NCBI GenBank assembly: GCA_021794015.1
Contig: JAJYRQ010000001.1
Coordinates: forward strand, 103,448 to 167,447
DNA: 64,000 bases
Source: Deltaproteobacteria bacterium
Lineage (GTDB): Bacteria > Desulfobacterota > Binatia > Binatales > Binataceae
Reading direction: 5' to 3'
The notes beneath the pieces were generated by a model. The model worked only from the letters and a program-made list of their open reading frames with translations. It was not told where the DNA came from and did no database searches. This document shows positions 15,792-60,129 of the stretch, in pieces. The stretch's first letter is position 1. The number at the start of each line of letters is the position of its first letter. Position numbers and translations under genes: made by a program.

Positions 15792-16259
15792 GTGAGCGAG
15801 ATGCGCACGCTGGAATGGCGCGATGTTGATCTCGCGGGACATGAAGTGCGACTACGCCCGGAGGAGAGCAATAACAAGGACGTCCGCGTCCTGCCCTTAC
15901 GCGGTAAGCTTCTCGAGGCGTTCGAGCGAGCTCGCGAAAAGGGCCGGGCAGATTGCCCACACGTGTTCCACGACGAGGGCGAGCCGATTGGCGATTTCCG
16001 AAAAGCGTGGAATACGGCCTGCAAGAAGGCTGGACTCAGCGGCATCATTGTGCACGACCTGCGGCGCACAGCGGTGCGACACATGGTCCGCGCCGGCATT
16101 CCCGAGCGGGTTGCGATGGAACTGAGCGGCCACAAGACCCGCAGGATCTTCGATCGCTACAACATCGTAAGCAACGAAGATCTTGCCTATGCGACAGAGC
16201 GGCTTCAAAGTCACCCCACGCAACAGGTGAGCTCTCCAAAGGTCAAGTCTTTAGCGTGA
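15792..16259 (+). pseudogene. Truncated phage-type tyrosine recombinase (integrase), catalytic domain only
   Basis: 155 codons cover just the catalytic half: Arg in SEMRTLEWRDVDL, Lys in the beta-hairpin region, HDLRRT, LSGHKTRRIF and the nucleophile Tyr in FDRYNIVS. The SAM-like and core-binding N-terminal domains are missing. The frame is broken just upstream, near 15786, where the residues preceding SEMR would be expected in another frame. With every catalytic residue present but no DNA-binding domain, it is probably inactive. It indicates past integration of a phage or genomic island. Confidence 0.8.
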
Positions 16260-16394: not shown

Positions 16395-16421
16395 TATTGA
16401 TACCTACAAAAGTAATGTCCT
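16395..16421 (+). repeat. IS630 left terminal inverted repeat
   Basis: Begins TATTGATACCTAC and ends AAGTAATGTCCT. It matches the reverse complement of 17474-17500 at 21 of 27 positions. The outermost TA is the probable target duplication. Confidence 0.8.
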
Positions 16422-16983
16422 AGCAGAGGCGCAAAGAAAGCGGACTGTGCCGGATGAAGGAGCGCAGCAGGCCGGGTTTGTATTGGAGGGAGCGGGCGTG
16501 TCGGCGGCCGGCGGCGGCGAGCAGATCGACGTCGGGGCAAGCGAGATTGGCCAGCGGCTTAGTCTTGAGGTAGCTCCACACATATTCGACCGGATTCAGC
16601 TCCGGGGCGTAGGGCGGGAAATAGAACTGCTGCCAATCCAGCACATCGAGGAAGACTTGGGTCTGGAGGCTGCGATGGATCTTGGCGCGATCCCAGACCA
16701 AGAGCAGCGGATTACGAAAGTGGCGAGCGAGCTGCTGCAGGAACCCCCGCACCGCGGCGGAATCGAAGTTCGCATCGACCCGCAACTGAAAGTACAGGCG
16801 CAGCTCGCGCCGGTCGGGGCTGACGCAAAGCGCGGCGATAGCAGAGACCTTCTTGAGGTTGCTGGCACGATGCCGGAGGGCTGGAGTTTGCCCGCGCGGG
16901 CTCCAGGTGCGTCGCACCACCGGGAGCAGGAGCAGCCCGCTCTCGTCGACGAAAACCAGCCATCCGTTCAGCCGCCGGGCTTT
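16420..16983 (-). CDS. IS630 transposase, C-terminal DDE part (orfB, reached by frameshift)
   Basis: This frame has no good start of its own. After slippage it continues ARRLNGWLVFVDESGLLLLP, with the first catalytic Asp in FVDES. It then runs through LLVWDRAKIHRS (second Asp) to FPPYAPELNPVEYVWSYLK (Glu), the DDE_3/IS630 signature. The stop lies inside the left terminal repeat. The fused product would be about 342 residues, the usual IS630 length. Confidence 0.85.
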   Translation of the reverse strand, partial: KARRLNGWLVFVDESGLLLLPVVRRTWSPRGQTPALRHRASNLKKVSAIAALCVSPDRRELRLYFQLRVDANFDSAAVRGFLQQLARHFRNPLLLVWDRAKIHRSLQTQVFLDVLDWQQFYFPPYAPELNPVEYVWSYLKTKPLANLACPDVDLLAAAGRRHARSLQYKPGLLRSFIRHSPLSLRLC

Positions 16984-17447
16984 TTTTTAATCCGCGGCCA
17001 TTGCTCTCTAACCCAGCGCTGGATGCCTTCCTCGTCCCGCTCCAACGCCCGCCGGGTCGGACGCTGCGGGCTAAAGCCCAGCGAACGCAGCAGCCGGCCA
17101 ATGTGATCGACGTGATAACTGATCCCGAACCGGCGCCGAATCACTTGCGCTACCCGCGGGCAGGTCCACAGGTCGCTCTCGAAGCCGCTCGCCGCCGCTC
17201 CGCGCAGAACAATCGCCTCCAACTGCTCGCGCTGGCGCGCGGTCAACTTCGAGGGGCGACCCGGCACCGGTCGCGCCGCCAATCCCTCCGCCCCCTGCTT
17301 GCGATATGCCGCATGCCAGCGCCGCACGCTGCGCCGGTCGACCCCGACCAGCCGCGCCACCTCGACCGGCGCGCGCCCTTCTTTCAGCAGCGCGATTGCC
17401 CGTTGCCGACGCCGCTCCAACTGCTTCGCATTCCCCACCGGCCGCAT
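16968..17447 (-). CDS. IS630 transposase, N-terminal HTH part (orfA)
   Basis: From ATG 17447 (MRPVGNAKQLERRRQRA) about 159 residues encode a helix-turn-helix domain (EVARLVGVDRRSVRRWHAAY) and a second winged helix (GISYHVDHIGRLLRSLGF). It ends at RIKKKPGG-stop. The AAAAAAAA run encoding KKK lets ribosomes slip by -1 into the catalytic frame. An upstream in-frame start at 17480 would lie inside the terminal repeat and is less likely. Confidence 0.85.
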   Translation of the reverse strand: MRPVGNAKQLERRRQRAIALLKEGRAPVEVARLVGVDRRSVRRWHAAYRKQGAEGLAARPVPGRPSKLTARQREQLEAIVLRGAAASGFESDLWTCPRVAQVIRRRFGISYHVDHIGRLLRSLGFSPQRPTRRALERDEEGIQRWVREQWPRIKKKPGG

Positions 17448-17473
17448 CTTCCACCTCCACCGGCCGGTAGTAT

Positions 17474-17500
17474 AGGACATTGCTTACGCAGGCGTCAATA
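17474..17500 (+). repeat. IS630 right terminal inverted repeat
   Basis: Begins AGGACATTGCTTACG and ends with GTCAATA. It pairs with the left repeat at 16395-16421, and an outer TA is present. The inner AGGACATT core is identical in both copies. Confidence 0.8.
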
Positions 17501-18222: not shown

Positions 18223-18337
18223 GCCACGCGGGCCGCCTGCGCGGCGCGAGGTGACGTTCGCTGCGCGGCTCCCTGGCGCACCTCGGGCGGTGTGGGGTAA
18301 AGTTGCGGCGGCAAGCGGCCGCGCCTATCATCGAGGC

Positions 18338-19162
18338 GTGGACTGGCGGCGGCCTGTTGCGCAAGGGCTGGCTTTCACGTTTCTTGCCGGATGCGTCGGA
18401 TGCACCCCGCCTCCGACCGCTTATCCGCAGATGAACGCCACGCAATCCAGCTTTAGCGCCGGAGGCTTGCAGGCAGGCGTGGGCAGCTTCGCCGGTTCCT
18501 CCCTAACTGGCGCAGGCGGCCAGAGCTTCCCGTACGCGAGCCCTGACCGAGGCGGCCATCAGCACGTTGCCCCCGGCCTTGGCCCCGAAGAACAGGCGCA
18601 GGAGCTAACCCGCTACTTGCATCAGCACAGGCTCCCGCTGGTCGGCGCGGAGGTGACCAAAGGCTCGGACGGCCGGCGCCGCGTGATGCTCTACGGCTTT
18701 GTGGCAACTGATTTCGGCAAGCGCGACGCGGCGCGCAAGGCACTCCGGTTCCTCGACGACCCTACGCTTCAGGTAATGAATCGGGTCGAGGTGCGGCCGG
18801 AGTTGCTCGCGATGGGCAACCGCGGCGCCATCTACCACTCCGGCGGCAGCCCGAGCATGGCGCAAGCCGGGAGCGGGAGTGCGAGTTCCGGGCTCGGCCT
18901 TGGCCCGTCCCCACCGGTGGCCGGAACCACTCCTTGGGGCAACGCGCAGAGCTACGCGAACCAGGGGCAGCCGCTGCAGCAGCAATACCAGCAGTCGAGT
19001 TCTGCGGGCAGTTGGGCGAGCACGCTGTTGCCGCTTGCGGGGATCATAGGGATCGGCGCGCTCAGCCTTTTCGGCGGCGGCTTCGGTTACGGGATGCCGT
19101 TCGGCTATGGGATGCCGTACGGGTACGGCATGCCCTTTGGCTACGGGATGCCCATCTTCTAG
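18338..19162 (+). CDS. Lipoprotein with Gly-Tyr-Gly-Met-Pro C-terminal repeats
   Basis: About 274 residues from the GTG at 18338. FTFLAGC gives a clean lipobox (L-A-G-C), so the mature protein should be lipid-anchored in the envelope. A central region (about residues 85-160) has DUF-like alpha/beta character (TRYLHQHRLPLVGAEVTKG; LYGFVATDFGKRDAARKALRF). A long Ser/Gly/Gln linker, a hydrophobic helix (LLPLAGIIGIGALSLFGGG) and a tail of four GYGMPF-type repeats follow. An in-frame start at 18251 lacks signal character. Function is unknown; the repeat tail suggests an envelope-surface role. Confidence 0.75.
   Translation: MDWRRPVAQGLAFTFLAGCVGCTPPPTAYPQMNATQSSFSAGGLQAGVGSFAGSSLTGAGGQSFPYASPDRGGHQHVAPGLGPEEQAQELTRYLHQHRLPLVGAEVTKGSDGRRRVMLYGFVATDFGKRDAARKALRFLDDPTLQVMNRVEVRPELLAMGNRGAIYHSGGSPSMAQAGSGSASSGLGLGPSPPVAGTTPWGNAQSYANQGQPLQQQYQQSSSAGSWASTLLPLAGIIGIGALSLFGGGFGYGMPFGYGMPYGYGMPFGYGMPIF
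19087..19158 (+). repeat. In-gene tandem repeat encoding YGMP(F/Y)G units
   Basis: Four consecutive 18-bp units encode Tyr-Gly-Met-Pro-Phe/Tyr-Gly or a close variant at the end of the lipoprotein. Wobble positions differ among the units, so this is not a very recent slippage expansion. Confidence 0.85.
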
Positions 19163-19257
19163 CGACGGCGGGCCATCGCATGGCCGCGAGGATGGAGGCG
19201 CCTTTTTCTTTGATTCTCGCGCATGGGCGCCGGCAGGTTCGCTCCGGTCTCCTCCCG

Positions 19258-19736
19258 CACGGCAAACGCGCGGGGGACCGCGCGAGGTCCTTCGACTCGG
19301 CCCGAAAACGGGCCTCGCTCAGGATGACGGAAGGGGGTGCCCGGGGACGGGCCTCGCTCGGGATGACGAAAGGGGGTGCCCGGGGACGGGCCTCGGAGGG
19401 CGCTCTCGCTTCGTTCAGGGTGCCGAAGCGGCAGCTCAGGAGGGTAGCAGGAGGAACAGGCGCGCTTCACTCGACGCGCCGCAGCGTGGCGCGCTGCCGA
19501 GGGAATTCCCGGGGGCGTGGTACCTGATGGCAAACGCGCGGGGGACCGCGCGAGGTCCTTCGACTCGGCCCGGAGACGGGCCTCGCTCAGGATGACGGAA
19601 GGGGGTGCCCGGGGATGGGCCTCGGAGGTTTCTCCCGCTTCGCTCAGGGTGCCGAAGCGGCAGCTCAGGAGGGTAGCAGGAGGAACAGGCGCGCTTCGCT
19701 CGACGCGCCGCAGCGTGGCGCGCTGCCGAGGGGAGC
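19258..19736 (+). repeat. Two tandem copies of an intergenic repeat
   Basis: Copy 1 starts at about 19260 and copy 2 at about 19529. Each opens with GGCAAACGCGCGGGGGACCG and closes near GCGTGGCGCGCTGCCGAGGG, with high identity. Copy 1 carries an extra internal CGGGCCTCGCTCGGGATGAC-type subunit, making it about 40 bp longer. The reverse complement contains TCATCCTGAGCGAGGC and GTCGAAGGACC, the core of a dispersed intergenic repeat family seen in many environmental genomes. No reading frame here looks protein-like. Confidence 0.85.
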
Positions 19737-20906
19737 TCAGCCAGCCCCGATCTCCGTGGCGAAGGCTCGCAGGTCGTCGGCGAGCATCTGCGGCTCTTCA
19801 AGCGCGGCGAAATGGCCTCCGCGCGGCATCACGGTCCAGCGCCTCAGGTTGAATATTCGCTCGACCCAGGCGCGCGGCGGCCGAACGATCTCCGCCGGAA
19901 AGACCGCGACACCGGTGGGCGTCTCGATTCGCGGGCCGGAATCGGGAAGCCAGGGGCGCTGCCTGAATTCGTAGTAGAGGCGGATCGAAGAATTGATCGT
20001 CTCGGTCACCCAGTAGATCATCACCGCGGTCAGCAGTTGGTCCTTGGTGAAGCGACGCTCGATATCGCCGCGGCAATCGCTCCAGGTTCGGTACTTCTCG
20101 ACGATCCAGGCGCAAAGCCCGGCCGGCGAGTCGTTGAGCGCGTAGCCAAGCGTCTGCGGCTTGGTTCCCTGTATCCACTGGTAGCCCGACTCAAGGCGCC
20201 TGAAGCGGTCCAGGTCACCTAGAAAAACCTTTTCCTCGGCGCTCAACTCGGTTCCCTGCGGGGTCTGCGAAGCGCCGACCGGGACCATGCTGAGATGCAG
20301 CCCCACGACCTCGGAGCGGTAAGCCTCGGCCATCCGCGAAGCGATCACCGCGCCCCAGTCGCCGCCGTGAACCACAAACCGGCGGTAGCCCAGGACTTCA
20401 GTCATCAGCTTGCAAAACAACTCCGCCATGAACTGCACGTTGACCCCGCGCCGGGCCACGCGGTCGGAAAAGCCGTAGCCGGGAAGCGAAGGGGCGACCA
20501 GGGGAAAGCCTGCCGCGGTCCCGTGGCCTTGCACCGCGCCGCCTCTTGCACCAAGCAGCGGGATTACGCGGGCGAACTCGAAAGGCGAGCTGGGCCATCC
20601 GTGAAGAAGCAGCACCGGCAGGGCGTCGGGATTGGCGCCCGACTCGTGGATGAAATGCAGTCGCATGCCGTCCACAGATGCCCGATACTGCGCCAGGTTG
20701 TTCAGCTCGCGCTCCTGGGCGCGCCAGTCGTAGCGCTCAAGCCAATATTCAAGCAACGCTTGAAGAAAGGCGCGCTCCGTGCCGTATTCCCAGCCCGCGC
20801 CGGGAACCTCGTCGGGCAGCCGCGTGCGCCCAAGCCGCGCCTGCAGGTCCTCCAGCACGGCCTCGGACACCGCGATGCGAAACGGCTCGGGCGTGGCGGC
20901 GGTCAT
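19737..20906 (-). CDS. Epoxide hydrolase (EHN-domain alpha/beta hydrolase)
   Basis: A 389-residue protein. An N-terminal EHN-type cap (about residues 1-110, PFRIAVSEAVLEDLQARL) precedes the alpha/beta-hydrolase core. The oxyanion motif is LLHGWPSSPFEF, the nucleophile elbow is VHGGDWGAVIAS (Asp in place of Ser, as in epoxide hydrolases), and the catalytic His is in PRGGHFAALEEP. It opens epoxides to diols. The first codon overlaps the YqeY stop (ATGA), so the two genes are probably co-transcribed. Confidence 0.92.
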   Translation of the reverse strand: MTAATPEPFRIAVSEAVLEDLQARLGRTRLPDEVPGAGWEYGTERAFLQALLEYWLERYDWRAQERELNNLAQYRASVDGMRLHFIHESGANPDALPVLLLHGWPSSPFEFARVIPLLGARGGAVQGHGTAAGFPLVAPSLPGYGFSDRVARRGVNVQFMAELFCKLMTEVLGYRRFVVHGGDWGAVIASRMAEAYRSEVVGLHLSMVPVGASQTPQGTELSAEEKVFLGDLDRFRRLESGYQWIQGTKPQTLGYALNDSPAGLCAWIVEKYRTWSDCRGDIERRFTKDQLLTAVMIYWVTETINSSIRLYYEFRQRPWLPDSGPRIETPTGVAVFPAEIVRPPRAWVERIFNLRRWTVMPRGGHFAALEEPQMLADDLRAFATEIGAG

Positions 20907-34347: not shown

Positions 34348-35099
34348 CGGAACAGGTCCGACTCGGCGCCCCGCACCAGGGCGCGGGCGCTGGCCTCGGC
34401 CGGTTGATAGCGGTAGCCGCGTATCAGCACGGCGGGTACCGCGCTGGCCTTGCGCATGAGCAGCCCGGCAGCGGCGGCCAGTTCGTCGGCCACGGCGATG
34501 ACGGTATGATGAAGCTCGCGCCCGCCCAGGTCTTTTTCGCCCCTTAGGTCGAGCAGCGGACTCAAGCCGCTTAACCCCAGGCATACCTCGGTCAGGCCCT
34601 GGCGCCAGGGGCGGCCGAAGGTGTCGGTGACCAGGACCGCGACGTCGACTCCGTAGCGGTGGCGCACCGCGGCTCGGATGCGAGCGGCGGAGGCGTCAGG
34701 GTCGTGCGGCAGCAAAACCGCCCAGCCCTCGCCCGGGCCGTTCGATTCGTCCACGCCGGCGTTGGCGCAGACCCAGCCTGGCCCGGTCTCGGCGATCAGC
34801 AGGCCGCGGTCCATCCGCACGATTCGGCGCGCCTGGCTTAGGACCAGTTCGAGCAGCCGCGCATCCTTGTCCCATTGCAGCGCAAGCTGGCGGGCGAACG
34901 GCGAGGGGGTGACTTCGGAGAGCAGTCGCAGCCGGCCTTCCGCCTTGGAGACAACCTTCTGGCAGACGGCAATGACGTCGCCCGGCTCGGCGCCGAGCCG
35001 GGTGACGTCGAGCGCGGCGACGATGAGCCCACCCAGGTCGTCGCCCGGCCCGATCATAGGCATCCCCTCGATCGGCGTTATGGTGATTGAGGCCGGCAT
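34344..35099 (-). CDS. cofE: Coenzyme F420-0:L-glutamate ligase
   Basis: A 251-residue protein. Motifs include GDVIAVCQKVVSKAEGR, GLLIAETGPGWVCANAGVDE, VTDTFGRPWRQGLTEVC and DLRGEKDLGGRELHHT, matching the CofE/FbiB N-terminal family. It adds glutamates to F420-0 with GTP. It is a stand-alone CofE rather than the fused FbiB of actinobacteria. It lies 12 bp after cofD and is coupled to the polyprenyl synthase gene. Confidence 0.94.
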   Translation of the reverse strand: MPASITITPIEGMPMIGPGDDLGGLIVAALDVTRLGAEPGDVIAVCQKVVSKAEGRLRLLSEVTPSPFARQLALQWDKDARLLELVLSQARRIVRMDRGLLIAETGPGWVCANAGVDESNGPGEGWAVLLPHDPDASAARIRAAVRHRYGVDVAVLVTDTFGRPWRQGLTEVCLGLSGLSPLLDLRGEKDLGGRELHHTVIAVADELAAAAGLLMRKASAVPAVLIRGYRYQPAEASARALVRGAESDLFR

Positions 35100-41586: not shown

Positions 41587-42839
41587 CCCGCCGTAGCGCG
41601 CTCGGCCGCAGGCTCGGCGCCGTCAAGTGTCAGACCGGCGTGGGCTGCGATGGTCTGCATGTCCTTGTCGCCGCGGCCTGAGAGATTGACTATTATGACA
41701 CGCTCGCTGCCCAACGAAGGAGCCAGGGCTGCCGCGTAGGCAACGGCGTGCGCGCTCTCAAGCGCGCTGATGATGCCCTCGGTCTCGGCCAGCAGGGCGA
41801 CGGCCTTAAGCGCCTGTTCGTCGGTAACGGCCGTATACTGAACCCGGCCGATGTCTTTAAGGTAGCTGTGCTCGGGGCCGACTCCCGGGTAATCCAGGCC
41901 GGCCGCGATCGAGTGGGTTTCTCGAATCTGGCCGAATTCGTCTTGCAGCAGGTAGGTGCGGTTGCCGTGCAGCACGCCGACGCTGCCGGCGACCAGGGTG
42001 GCCGCGTGTGCCGGTCCATCCAGGCCCTTGCCGGCCGCTTCCACCCCGACCATCTTCACCGCGGCGTCTTTGAGAAAGGGATAAAACAGTCCGATCGCGT
42101 TTGAGCCGCCGTTGACACACGCCACCAGAAAGTCGGGAAGCCGCCGCTCGCGGCGTAGCACCTGGCGGCGCGCCTCGCGCCCGATGACCGACTGGAAGTC
42201 GCGGACGATGAGCGGGTAGGGATGGGGCCCTGCCACCGTGCCGATCAGGTAGTAGGTGTCGCGCACGGTTGCGATCCAGTCGCGCAGCGCTTCGTTGAGC
42301 GCGTCTTTGAGCGTCTTGCTGCCCGACTCGACCGGGTTGACTCGGGCGCCGAGCAGTTTCATCCGCAAGACGTTGAGCGCCTGCCGCTCGACGTCGAGCC
42401 GCCCCATGAAAATCTCGCACTTGAGGCCGAACAGCGCCGCCATCGTGGCGGCTGCGACGCCGTGCTGGCCGGCGCCGGTCTCGGCCGTCAGGCGCGATTT
42501 CTTCATGCGCACGGCCAGCAGCGCCTGGCCCAGCGTATTGTTGACCTTGTGGGCGCCGGTGTGGCAGAGGTCCTCGCGCTTGAGGTAAATTTTCGCTCCG
42601 CCCAGGCGCTGGGTCAGGTTGCGCGCGAAATAAAGCGGCGTGGGACGGCCGACATAGTCGGCGGCATAGCGCGCCAGTTGGGCGCTGAAAGCCGGGTCGC
42701 GCCGGGCCTGCTTGTATGACTGCTCGAGCTCGTACAGAGCCGGCATCAGCGTTTCCGCCACGTAGCGGCCCCCGTAGGCACCGAACCAGCCGCGGCTGTC
42801 AGGCACTCTTCGGCTTCGCTCAGGGCAGGCCCTTGGCAT
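41583..42839 (-). CDS. trpB: Tryptophan synthase beta chain
   Basis: About 418 residues from the ATG at 42839, which has AGGAGG ten bases upstream. This start overlaps trpF by 20 bp. [30 protein letters not shown] (PLP Lys), [12 protein letters not shown] and [14 protein letters not shown] are canonical. The first 12 residues ([12 protein letters not shown]) come from an inserted intergenic repeat and are not part of normal TrpB. An alternative GTG at 42806 would exclude them but has a weaker ribosome site. Confidence 0.95.
42807..42832. repeat. Repeat element inserted at the trpF/trpB junction
   Basis: The segment reads, on the minus strand, GGCCTGCCCTGAGCGAAGCC followed by GAAGAG. This is the CCTGAGCGAAGxCGAAG core of the dispersed repeat family seen at 19.3-19.7 kb. 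It supplies the stop codon of trpF and the PERSRR peptide near the TrpB N-terminus. Confidence 0.75.
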
Positions 42840-49607: not shown

Positions 49608-50398
49608 GCTGCCCCGGCGGCCTGTGAGGCGTCTTTGCTGGCCGGGCGCTAAACGACACAAGCAGGCGCCCGGGGCTGCGGGGGCGCGGCTCGGCACCAA
49701 GCCCGAGGGCTCGCGATCTCTTCGCGCACCAAAGCGGGCCGAGGCTCAGGATGCGGCTTAGTCGGAGGCGGCGGGGGCGGCGAAGCGGCGGTCGTACTCT
49801 TCGTGCAGCCGCCGCTCGGCCGTCCAGAAAAGTGTAGCGCGCCCATTTCTTGCCGCCGCGTACGCTCGCGAGCAGAGAAGAGCAAGACGGCTGTATGGTC
49901 CCGAGGTAAGCCGACGCCGGGCCTCGGGGTCGGCAGTCGCCTCGGTTCAAGCCGGCTATTGACGGCTGCTCTTGACGGCCAGCTTGGCCTGTCGCTCGGC
50001 GTGGGCCTGCTCGTCGGCGGCATCGTATCTGTTGCGGCTTCAGCCTTGATTGCCAAGACGCACCGGCCGAGGTCTGTCCTGGCGGCCGGTTACTTGCGGC
50101 TATGTGTCTTTCAGCACAAGCGGCGTGCACAGGGAACATGGCCGAGGGGGACTGCAAGGGAGCTCGCTCTAGGCCCGCGAGAAGAACCTTCGTTCCCGAT
50201 CGTCTGCCCGAGGATCGCGCACCTATGCTCAAAGCGGAGGCAGCCTAAGCGTAGTCAAGCCTGGTTGGTTGCTTGTGCTGACCGGAAGAGGGCAGGTCGG
50301 GCGAGGGTCCGGAGGCGGCGCCTAGGGCGCGCAAAAACTGAGGGGAGTGCCGGCCGGCTACCGTTGTCCATGGGTCAGGAGCGGGACTGAGCCGAGTG
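49608..50398 (+). other. 791-bp region of gene fragments, no intact gene
   Basis: No complete gene is present. It contains the composite fragment at 49749-49955. A further minus-strand piece around 49960-50045 reads DAADEQAHAERQAKLAVKSS before a stop and looks like the tail of a lost gene. The rest, up to the sigma-54 promoter, has no recognisable content. Confidence 0.6.
49749..49955 (-). pseudogene. Composite of SPOR-gene 3' end and a trpE-like 5' piece
   Basis: 49749-49822 is identical to 59281-59354 (the 3' end of the SPOR gene plus flank) at 73 of 74 positions. 49824-49955 resembles codons near the start of trpE (47163-47296) at roughly 70 percent; one minus frame still reads SVRGGKKWARYTFL. 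The two pieces abut in the same orientation but out of frame. Neither can be functional. Confidence 0.8.
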
Positions 50399-59254: not shown

Positions 59255-59289
59255 GTTAGACGCGGGCTGGCGAAGCCCCCGGATGCGGC

Positions 59290-60129
59290 CTAGTCGGAGG
59301 CGGCGGGGGCGGCGAAGCGGCGGTCGTACTCTTCGTGCAGCCGCCGCTCGGCCGCTTCAGCCTCGGCCTTGGTCCGGTACGGTCCCACGGAGAGGCGATA
59401 CCAGGTTTCGCTGCCGACCGTCGCGGGCGTCAGGTGCGCTTCGAAGCCGAGGCCGACCAGGCGCTGATAGAGTTGCTTGGCGGCAGCGCGGTCCATCCGC
59501 TTGCCGATCCAGACGGTGTAGGGCTTGCGCCGCGCCTCGGCGTGCGTCGGGTGCGGCGCCGCGCCGCGCGACGCCACCGAGGAAGGCGCGCCGGCGCGGG
59601 CCCGCAGCGTCGCGGGAGCATGACGCTCGGGCTGAGGCGCTCGCGCCGCGACCGGCGCGGCCGAGGCCGCCCGGCTGGGTCGCGGGCCAGAGGCGGACGC
59701 CGAGCTCATCTCACCGGCTGCGGGTGGCGGGCCGAGAGCCGCGCGCGCGCTTTGAGGCCGCTGGCTGTTTGCTGGCGAGGAAATGGTTCCCCGGGGGCGT
59801 GACGCAGATTCGGTTGCCCGTTCCGGGCTGCGGCTGGGAGCGCCGGTCTCGCCCAAGGCGGGACCGGAGGGGCTGCTCGGCCGTAGCGCAACCGCCGGCG
59901 CCGCGGTCGGCACCGGCGGTAAACCTTCGCCACCGGGTGCGAGGCTGGTGCCGGCGCTCGCGCTGGGCGGCGGCTCAACGGTATAGGTGCTCGCCAGCCC
60001 GCCGGGTGGTTCTTCAACGCGGCCAAGCTGGTAGCCGGAGACCAGCCCGAGCATGAACACGGCGCCGGACAGCCCCGCGATGGCGAGCAGGATAAGCAGC
60101 CCGCCCCCTGGCCCAATTTCGAATCGCAT
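59290..60129 (-). CDS. SPOR-domain membrane protein
   Basis: A 279-residue protein. One transmembrane helix (LLILLAIAGLSGAVFMLGLV) near the N-terminus is followed by a long Pro/Ala/Ser-rich linker (about 40-200) and a C-terminal SPOR domain (PYTVWIGKRMDRAAAKQLYQ; YRLSVGPYRTKAEAEAAERR). SPOR domains bind denuded septal peptidoglycan, so the protein is probably periplasm-facing and linked to division. It is 9 bp from argS. A near-perfect copy of its 3' end lies at 49749. Confidence 0.87.
   Translation of the reverse strand: MRFEIGPGGGLLILLAIAGLSGAVFMLGLVSGYQLGRVEEPPGGLASTYTVEPPPSASAGTSLAPGGEGLPPVPTAAPAVALRPSSPSGPALGETGAPSRSPERATESASRPRGTISSPANSQRPQSARAALGPPPAAGEMSSASASGPRPSRAASAAPVAARAPQPERHAPATLRARAGAPSSVASRGAAPHPTHAEARRKPYTVWIGKRMDRAAAKQLYQRLVGLGFEAHLTPATVGSETWYRLSVGPYRTKAEAEAAERRLHEEYDRRFAAPAASD

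Follow-up and report, generated by a model that had tools for sequence, protein, structure and literature searches.

A repeat block in a 64,000-nucleotide stretch of a Binataceae genome (the window) is read here as two tandem, gene-less copies of a REP-like hairpin repeat that carries a CGTC or TGTC tag and is partnered by a small GIY-YIG nuclease. We assign this reading a probability of roughly 0.6. In the source genome, the complete form consists of a repeat, a small GIY-YIG nuclease gene, and an inverted repeat. In at least 11 phyla, genes of particular GIY-YIG clades lie between inverted hairpins that bear the tag. The combined evidence suggests that a GIY-YIG nuclease is the enzyme spreading a large class of bacterial repeats, and we infer that the nuclease drives repeat dispersal.

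The block lies between two convergent genes (Table 1). The original prediction described two long copies, one with an extra subunit, placed between a lipoprotein gene and an epoxide hydrolase gene. Both copies are real, and the extra subunit corresponds to a 39-bp unit in copy 1 that was recovered by TRF. The epoxide hydrolase is confirmed by its Pfam family, whereas the lipoprotein label follows from a lipobox-like LAGC spotted by eye in a frame with no Pfam match. Identity between direct copies reaches 97% for 19261-19356 against 19529-19624 and 94% for 19339-19503 against 19568-19732, with starts offset by 229-268 bp. The self-match of the block within the window has an E value of approximately 1e-67 (BLAST), which indicates duplication and not chance. 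On the minus strand, each copy reads CGTC-ATCCTGAGC...GAAGGACC with another GC-rich hairpin after it, and the window cores take the form CGTCATCCTGAGC. A third tag in the block originates from the 39-bp duplication of copy 1. The window copy displays an outer stem TCCT/AGGA with an A:C mismatch outside it and an inner 6-bp stem. Folded as single-stranded DNA, the copy 1 core reaches -21 kcal/mol (z -4.06) and the copy 2 core gives a z of -3.68; each beats 200 of 200 shuffles. Rfam returned no match to a known RNA family at E <= 0.1 over positions 19000-20000.

Table 1. Coordinates of the repeat block, its neighbours, and the trpF/trpB core in the window.
Feature	Position	Strand	Description	Basis
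Copy 1 of repeat block	19261-19503		243 bp, with extra 39-bp subunit	Repeat finding and BLAST
Copy 2 of repeat block	19529-19732		94-98% identity to copy 1	Repeat finding and BLAST
Internal tandem duplication in copy 1	19308-19395		Period 39, 2.3 units, 95% matches	TRF
CGTC-tagged hairpin core, copy 1	19264-19332	-	GTCATCCTGAGCG at 19316 (-)	DNA fold
Second tag and core in copy 1	19355-19367	-	GTCATCCCGAGCG, from the 39-bp duplication	
CGTC-tagged hairpin core, copy 2	19532-19600	-	GTCATCCTGAGCG at 19584 (-)	DNA fold
Upstream neighbour (context only)	18251-19162	+	Predicted lipoprotein, no Pfam family	By eye
Downstream neighbour (context only)	19737-20906	-	Epoxide hydrolase	PF06441 EHN, E 1.9e-35
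Short tagless core at trpF/trpB	42805-42828	-	CCTGAGCGAAGCCGAAGAG, possible relic of a related repeat	19-nt BLAST match

The source genome is a 3.33-Mb draft of 61 contigs in which several repeat copies sit at contig ends, a condition compatible with an assembly artefact or with plain local duplication lacking any mobile family. The block itself is far from the ends of its 189-kb contig and its copies differ, so no artefact is obvious. A genome-wide repeat census established that other copies exist. The 259-bp block matches 24 places at E <= 0.01 (BLAST; 40 of 66 first-look candidates scored). A search for the core GTCATYCYGAGCG found 58 exact matches, and the reversed pattern gave a single one. 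All three matches to the core pattern within the window fall inside the block. Judging from coordinates, a contig end is no more than about 350 bp away at 8 of the 24 BLAST places, and the count obtained is therefore probably an underestimate of copy number. The repeat core is present in at least three copies in 24 of 25 other genomes. The differences between copies, the excess of exact cores over the control, and the same arrangement in unrelated, complete replicons leave an artefact or plain duplication with hardly any credibility. The anticipated dispersed, non-autonomous family with tandem growth is therefore upheld by the BLAST places, the core counts, and the 39-bp duplication.

Recurrence of the core at the trpF/trpB junction, also part of the original prediction, holds in a reduced form. 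A 19-nt match exists at 42807-42825 (BLAST E 0.13) and covers the trpF stop codon at 42820-42822, but it is not a full copy. It lacks the GTCAT tag and is thus a relic at best. The sequence may derive from a related repeat; it is too short and too degenerate for a full family member and is no proof of dispersal. As a separate observation, the repeat core over the trpF stop encodes the 10 residues that open the trpB frame (42790-42830), giving this gene junction a repeat-encoded peptide.

Elsewhere in the window, two neighbouring frames on the minus strand at 16420-17480 contain DDE_3 (PF13358) and winged-helix HTH_33/HTH_32 domains and look like a frameshifted IS630-type transposase, the type being assigned by eye. 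A truncated phage-integrase domain (PF00589, E 3.7e-16) is located near this transposase remnant at 15792-16259. BLAST also detected a near-perfect 36-bp palindrome at 34974-35009 (94% self-complementary) and a 74-bp direct repeat at 49749-49822 and 59281-59354 (98.6% identical, 9.5 kb apart).

A search of the source genome with PF01541 gave seven matches, comprising six small frames, two of which are cut by contig ends, and one match in a 733-aa UvrC-like frame. Inspection of the flanks shows many repeat copies directly beside one kind of small frame, the GIY-YIG nuclease, and places the small frames between copies of the repeat or its relatives, inverted and with tags pointing outward. The reading frame of the commonest type runs into the repeat and stops there. 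The downstream arm of this type matches the block at 88-93% identity, and a GIY-YIG gene remnant (L003) has a downstream arm that is 90% identical to copy 1 over 177 bp. A profile search recovered one more small GIY-YIG frame, the seventh, which is degenerate and lies on the same contig outside the window (C35:55860), with an inverted pair of arms (IR 15).

The original prediction left the spreading enzyme unnamed and put forward a RAYT or similar helper. REP-like hairpins, dimers, and intergenic dispersal would all fit REPs driven by a RAYT. The corresponding domain (Y1_Tnp, PF01797) has no match in the source genome, although the control search was positive in 5 of 14 named genomes, and the tag is CGTC or TGTC instead of GTAG. 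A RAYT-driven origin is therefore very improbable. The candidate that stands in its place is the small GIY-YIG nuclease encoded inside the same repeat family.

Three of these proteins (P0001-P0003) match PF01541 over the cut-off, with E values from 2e-15 to 5e-12. The nuclease has a length of about 90 residues with intact catalytic residues. Across 36 nucleases, R24, H28, E61, and N80 are invariant, and Y4, Y14, and G16 are nearly so; we take these positions to be the GIY-YIG catalytic set. The AlphaFold2 model has a pLDDT of 92.6, and its nearest neighbours among solved folds are the uncharacterised UPF0213 proteins (1zg2, 1ywl), SLX1, which is a branched-DNA nuclease, and the N-domain of UvrC. 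Since the protein consists of the catalytic domain only, it plausibly recognises DNA shape rather than a long sequence. PADLOC and PHROGs gave no match pointing to a defence or phage origin for the three source-genome proteins, NCBIfam gave none either, and P0003 had none in 50,697 phage records.

The arrangement extends well beyond the source genome. A protein-only pattern was searched in 84,980 species genomes, and the best 80 of 531 confirmed candidates were taken. The hairpin test sought a YGTC tag and a 5-nt stem with its complement within 80 nt, leaving the repeat sequence free. Among these best 80 of 531 loci, 41 had a tagged hairpin on each side and 70 had one on at least one side; the corresponding counts for 258 other open frames at the same loci were 1 and 35. 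The reversed-letter control gave 0 and 7 of the 80, respectively. About half of the 80 lack a perfect hairpin on one or both sides. The motif GTCATNCYGA, which was fixed together with the clade cut-off after a first look at the data, pointed outward on both sides at 42 of the 80 loci against 0 of 275 neighbour genes, and was found on at least one side at 64 of 80 against 16 of 275. When the upstream flank was aligned locally with the reverse-complemented downstream flank, the score averaged 16.4, compared with 8.4 for random placements at the same loci. The score exceeded the 99th percentile of the control at 43 of 78 loci from this set; two with short flanks were dropped here, whereas the hairpin test kept all 80. 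Flank pairs scoring at least 13 span at least 11 phyla among the named loci.

The stems behave as selected structures. Of 189 instances, 115 had the complement of the stem within their own repeat, compared with 8.7% of swapped pairs, which supports a selected, covarying hairpin. Covarying stems include ATCCT, ATTCT, ATCCC, ATTCC, and ATGCT. The 115 GIY-flanking instances with a complementary stem carry the tags TGTC (89), CGTC (22), CCTC (2), and TCTC (2), within a search pattern that itself demanded [TC][GC]TC. Tails mostly begin with CT or CC (CTG 24, CTC 17, CCA 13). Counting against the nuclease model, the source-genome nuclease type nearest to the block fails the strict test, its outer stem being 4 bp long with an A:C mismatch outside it.

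Named cases were collected by a tblastn search in which a relative's nuclease served as query against plasmid records; it yielded 34 records. Twelve were examined, and in 8 of these the strict test found a hairpin on both sides. In Azospirillum lipoferum, the gene is flanked by CGTCATCCCCGCGAAGGCGGGGATCCAG, whose stem starts with complementary A-T as in CGTC REPs. GIY-YIG genes of Sinorhizobium meliloti and Novosphingobium are flanked by CGTCATCCTCGGGCTTGACCCGAGGATCCA and CGTCGCCCCGTGCTTGACACGGGGC, respectively, and that of Neisseria gonorrhoeae by the dRS3-type CGTCATTCCCGCGCAGGCGGGAATCC. Neisseria is rich in dRS3, so this case alone proves little.

Within the class to which the window belongs, 62 of 148 genomes have a match to the profile of flanked nucleases. 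The class census examined 70 matches (L162-L231) and dropped three with a short or masked flank; it leaves out G117, partial matches, and matches already in other sets. Two-sided tagged hairpins were found at 27 of 40 loci in the close clade and at 0 of 27 in other GIY-YIG clades, with a close-clade cut-off (E <= 1e-25) chosen after viewing the data. The remaining 13 close-clade loci lack a perfect hairpin on one or both sides. A UvrC control offered 2 usable loci, which is too few. Among relatives, the clade formed by L112, L121, and L125, which we take to be YhbQ-like, has no repeat flanks.

Repeat type follows protein clade in the tree. Canonical CGTC repeats go with one clade and CTGAGC-type repeats with others, and a third clade (L115, L118) is accompanied by repeats of the CGTCCTGAGCG...GTCGAAGG type. 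Counted with L204, L207, L216, and L220, these two loci belong to a second GIY-YIG clade (FWVYILRCGDGSYYTGHTDDLE-like) flanked by the hairpin CGTTCGTCCTGAGC...GTCGAAGG or a variant, which suggests an independent nuclease-repeat pairing. A second-clade gene at L113 (G048) lies between CTACTCGGGGAATCGG repeats, the reverse complement of which ends in GTAG. Phylum mixing in the nuclease tree (25 changes) was rejected as proof of transfer, given 92 columns and 59 of 108 inner branches left open.

Copy numbers point in the same direction as the tree. The sequence CGGGCTTGACCCG, which borders the nuclease gene in G006 and G030, was counted 64 times in the former and 51 times in the latter, whereas each of 55 other relatives has between 0 and 5 copies. 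In genus g7, it is present in 18-88 copies in 5 of 5 genomes with the matching nuclease and absent from 2 of 2 without it; G006 and G030, from which it was picked, are positive by construction, so the informative genomes are the other 55 together with G098 (35 copies), G099 (88), and G100 (18), where the nuclease is present, and G020 and G033 (0 each), where it is absent. At least 10 copies occur in 8 of the 148 class genomes, and 8 of 8 have a nuclease match (Fisher 7e-4, kinship ignored). For GTCATTCCSGCGNANGCSGGAATCC, 11 of the 19 rich genomes have an NGTLY-type nuclease, compared with 10 of the 129 others (1.2e-6, kinship ignored), with G117 counted as a carrier although its copies are truncated. 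G159 is a twelfth GTCATTCCSGCGNANGCSGGAATCC-rich genome with an NGTLY-type nuclease, flanked on both sides. Counting against the nuclease model, 7 of 19 GTCATTCCSGCG-rich genomes lack the matching nuclease type. A comparison of repeat count with the presence of any small GIY-YIG within the family of the source genome (p 0.009) was set aside on account of related genomes and the exception G033; for these same two reasons, weight is placed on the type-specific comparison of copy numbers.

The nuclease could instead be a passenger. Under such a scenario, another agent, for instance host recombination or a transposase acting in trans, would spread the repeats, and the GIY-YIG cassette would prefer sites between hairpins or survive there. 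Repeat-rich genomes without a small GIY-YIG gene argue for this explanation and against the nuclease model (G033 with 133 copies and, within the family of the source genome, G034 with 48, G011 with 39, and G015 with 30), although gene loss or assembly gaps could account for them. G117 also fits, as a case in which another element carries the nuclease gene passively. The nuclease profile finds at least 35 matches in this genome (L232-L251), and six aligned copies define an element of about 460 bp whose inverted ends are 29 bp long (GGGTGCGCGACAAATTTGTGGGTAACGTG) and whose cargo is one CGTC REP with a GIY-YIG gene truncated at the C-terminus. The element was apparently amplified by some other transposase. 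The inverted ends and the truncated gene in the six-copy alignment argue against self-amplification by the GIY-YIG gene there, and G117 was dropped from the flank census since its gene is truncated inside another element. On the other hand, a passenger role leaves unexplained the match between nuclease clade and repeat sequence, the invariant catalytic residues, and the complete lack of two-sided flanking in the other GIY-YIG clades. On this balance, we consider it unlikely.

Orthologous sites indicate that gene and repeats move as a unit. A. lipoferum has a repeat-nuclease-repeat unit between sufB and sufC, where four other Azospirillum genomes have a short spacer and no unit. At the junction between fnrL and a response regulator gene on Sphingobium plasmids, the full repeat-nuclease-repeat unit is found in three of the plasmids aligned; TomTYG64 and TomTYG74 have a single palindrome in the same place, and TomTYG72 has neither. 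The solitary palindrome of TomTYG64 is an exact recombinant of the filled allele, with 12 nt from the start of its left repeat and 17 nt from the end of its right repeat, and no other palindrome among the REP matches of six plasmids bears two tags. Excision, by a cut or a recombination event between the hairpin pair, would leave joined outer arms of this kind. The reverse course, with a unit inserting into a palindrome, is possible as well. No target-site duplication, which a MITE of a DDE insertion sequence would be expected to show, was found at the two compared sites (Azospirillum sufB-sufC and Sphingobium fnrL). Empty-site searches returned separate flanks only in Rhizobium and no match beyond the query itself in Novosphingobium.

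These filled and empty sites also bear on a housekeeping explanation, in which the GIY-YIG protein would cut REP cruciforms for fork progress, its gene would lie beside repeats for self-regulation, and replication errors would spread the repeats. The presence of SLX1 among the nearest folds and the strength of the hairpins agree with such a role. Gene and repeats nonetheless come or go together at orthologous sites, and the gene is missing from 86 of the 148 class genomes, unlike a housekeeping function. This alternative is accordingly improbable.

With the nuclease as the spreading enzyme, a working mechanism can be outlined. The protein would recognise the repeat hairpin, either on lagging-strand single-stranded DNA or as a cruciform, and would cut it at or near the YGTC tag. 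Excision would leave a repeat scar, and host replication or repair would place cut copies at new sites. The nuclease may also act in trans on gene-less copies, and slippage between repeats or unequal exchange may enlarge local arrays, the window block among them. For CGTC-type REPs, the nuclease would then take the role that the RAYT tyrosine transposase has for GTAG-type REPs. GIY-YIG nucleases are not known to transfer strands, so insertion into naive sites is not accounted for by the nuclease model. In its broadest form, the proposal defines a class of mobile element with a minimal GIY-YIG gene of about 90 residues and without its own transposase, integrase, or reverse transcriptase, which mobilises itself and many gene-less hairpin repeats. 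Its nuclease would be the missing enzyme of CGTC REPs in at least 11 phyla, dRS3 included, with separate clades tuned to separate hairpins. We judge the odds of this broader claim to be even.

With a nuclease nested in CGTC REPs and varying in parallel with their sequence and copy number, the question of the missing enzyme becomes directly testable. The material involved is small, namely a 90-residue protein and a 30-nt oligonucleotide. If the proposal is correct, a large protein group annotated only as 'GIY-YIG nuclease family protein' would gain a function, and DNA mobility would gain a new kind of enzyme.

Few repeats are as common in bacterial genomes as REPs, and those tagged with GTAG have a known partner enzyme. 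The GTAG REP/RAYT systems (REPtrons, REPINs) resemble the present arrangement in having a small enzyme gene between inverted hairpins and many gene-less copies elsewhere. They differ in that the tag here is CGTC, the enzyme is a GIY-YIG nuclease instead of an HUH tyrosine transposase, and the RAYT is absent from the genome. According to a 2013 survey, CGTC REPs "apparently lack a dedicated transposase", form a super-family that includes the Neisseria dRS3, and are defined by an unpaired CGTC tag (or TGTC/CCTC), a stem of 8-9 bp starting from A-T, and a CCA-like tail (Di Nocera et al. 2013, PMC3733652). The GIY-flanking repeats share the CGTC or TGTC tag, inverted dimers, and intergenic dispersal; most have a C-rich tail, and some, such as that of A. 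lipoferum but not the window copy, have the A-T stem start. The repeats of A. lipoferum, S. meliloti, N. aromaticivorans, and Neisseria come from species or genera listed in that survey (PMC3733652). In contrast to CGTC REPs as described there, with no enzyme, a GIY-YIG gene is nested in the repeats here (PMC3733652). The window subtype departs from CGTC REPs in its shorter, mismatched outer stem and its longer loop. A search of an open-access library turned up no report that links GIY-YIG nucleases to REPs. Among GIY-YIG proteins, the UPF0213/YhbQ-like members (1zg2, 1ywl) have the same fold as the flanked nuclease, with a profile E value of 3e-8 to 1zg2. In free-standing homing endonucleases and in Penelope-like elements with GIY-YIG domains, a nuclease serves the spread of DNA. 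The present arrangement differs from both in having no intron and no reverse transcriptase; it consists of a minimal catalytic domain encoded between hairpins.
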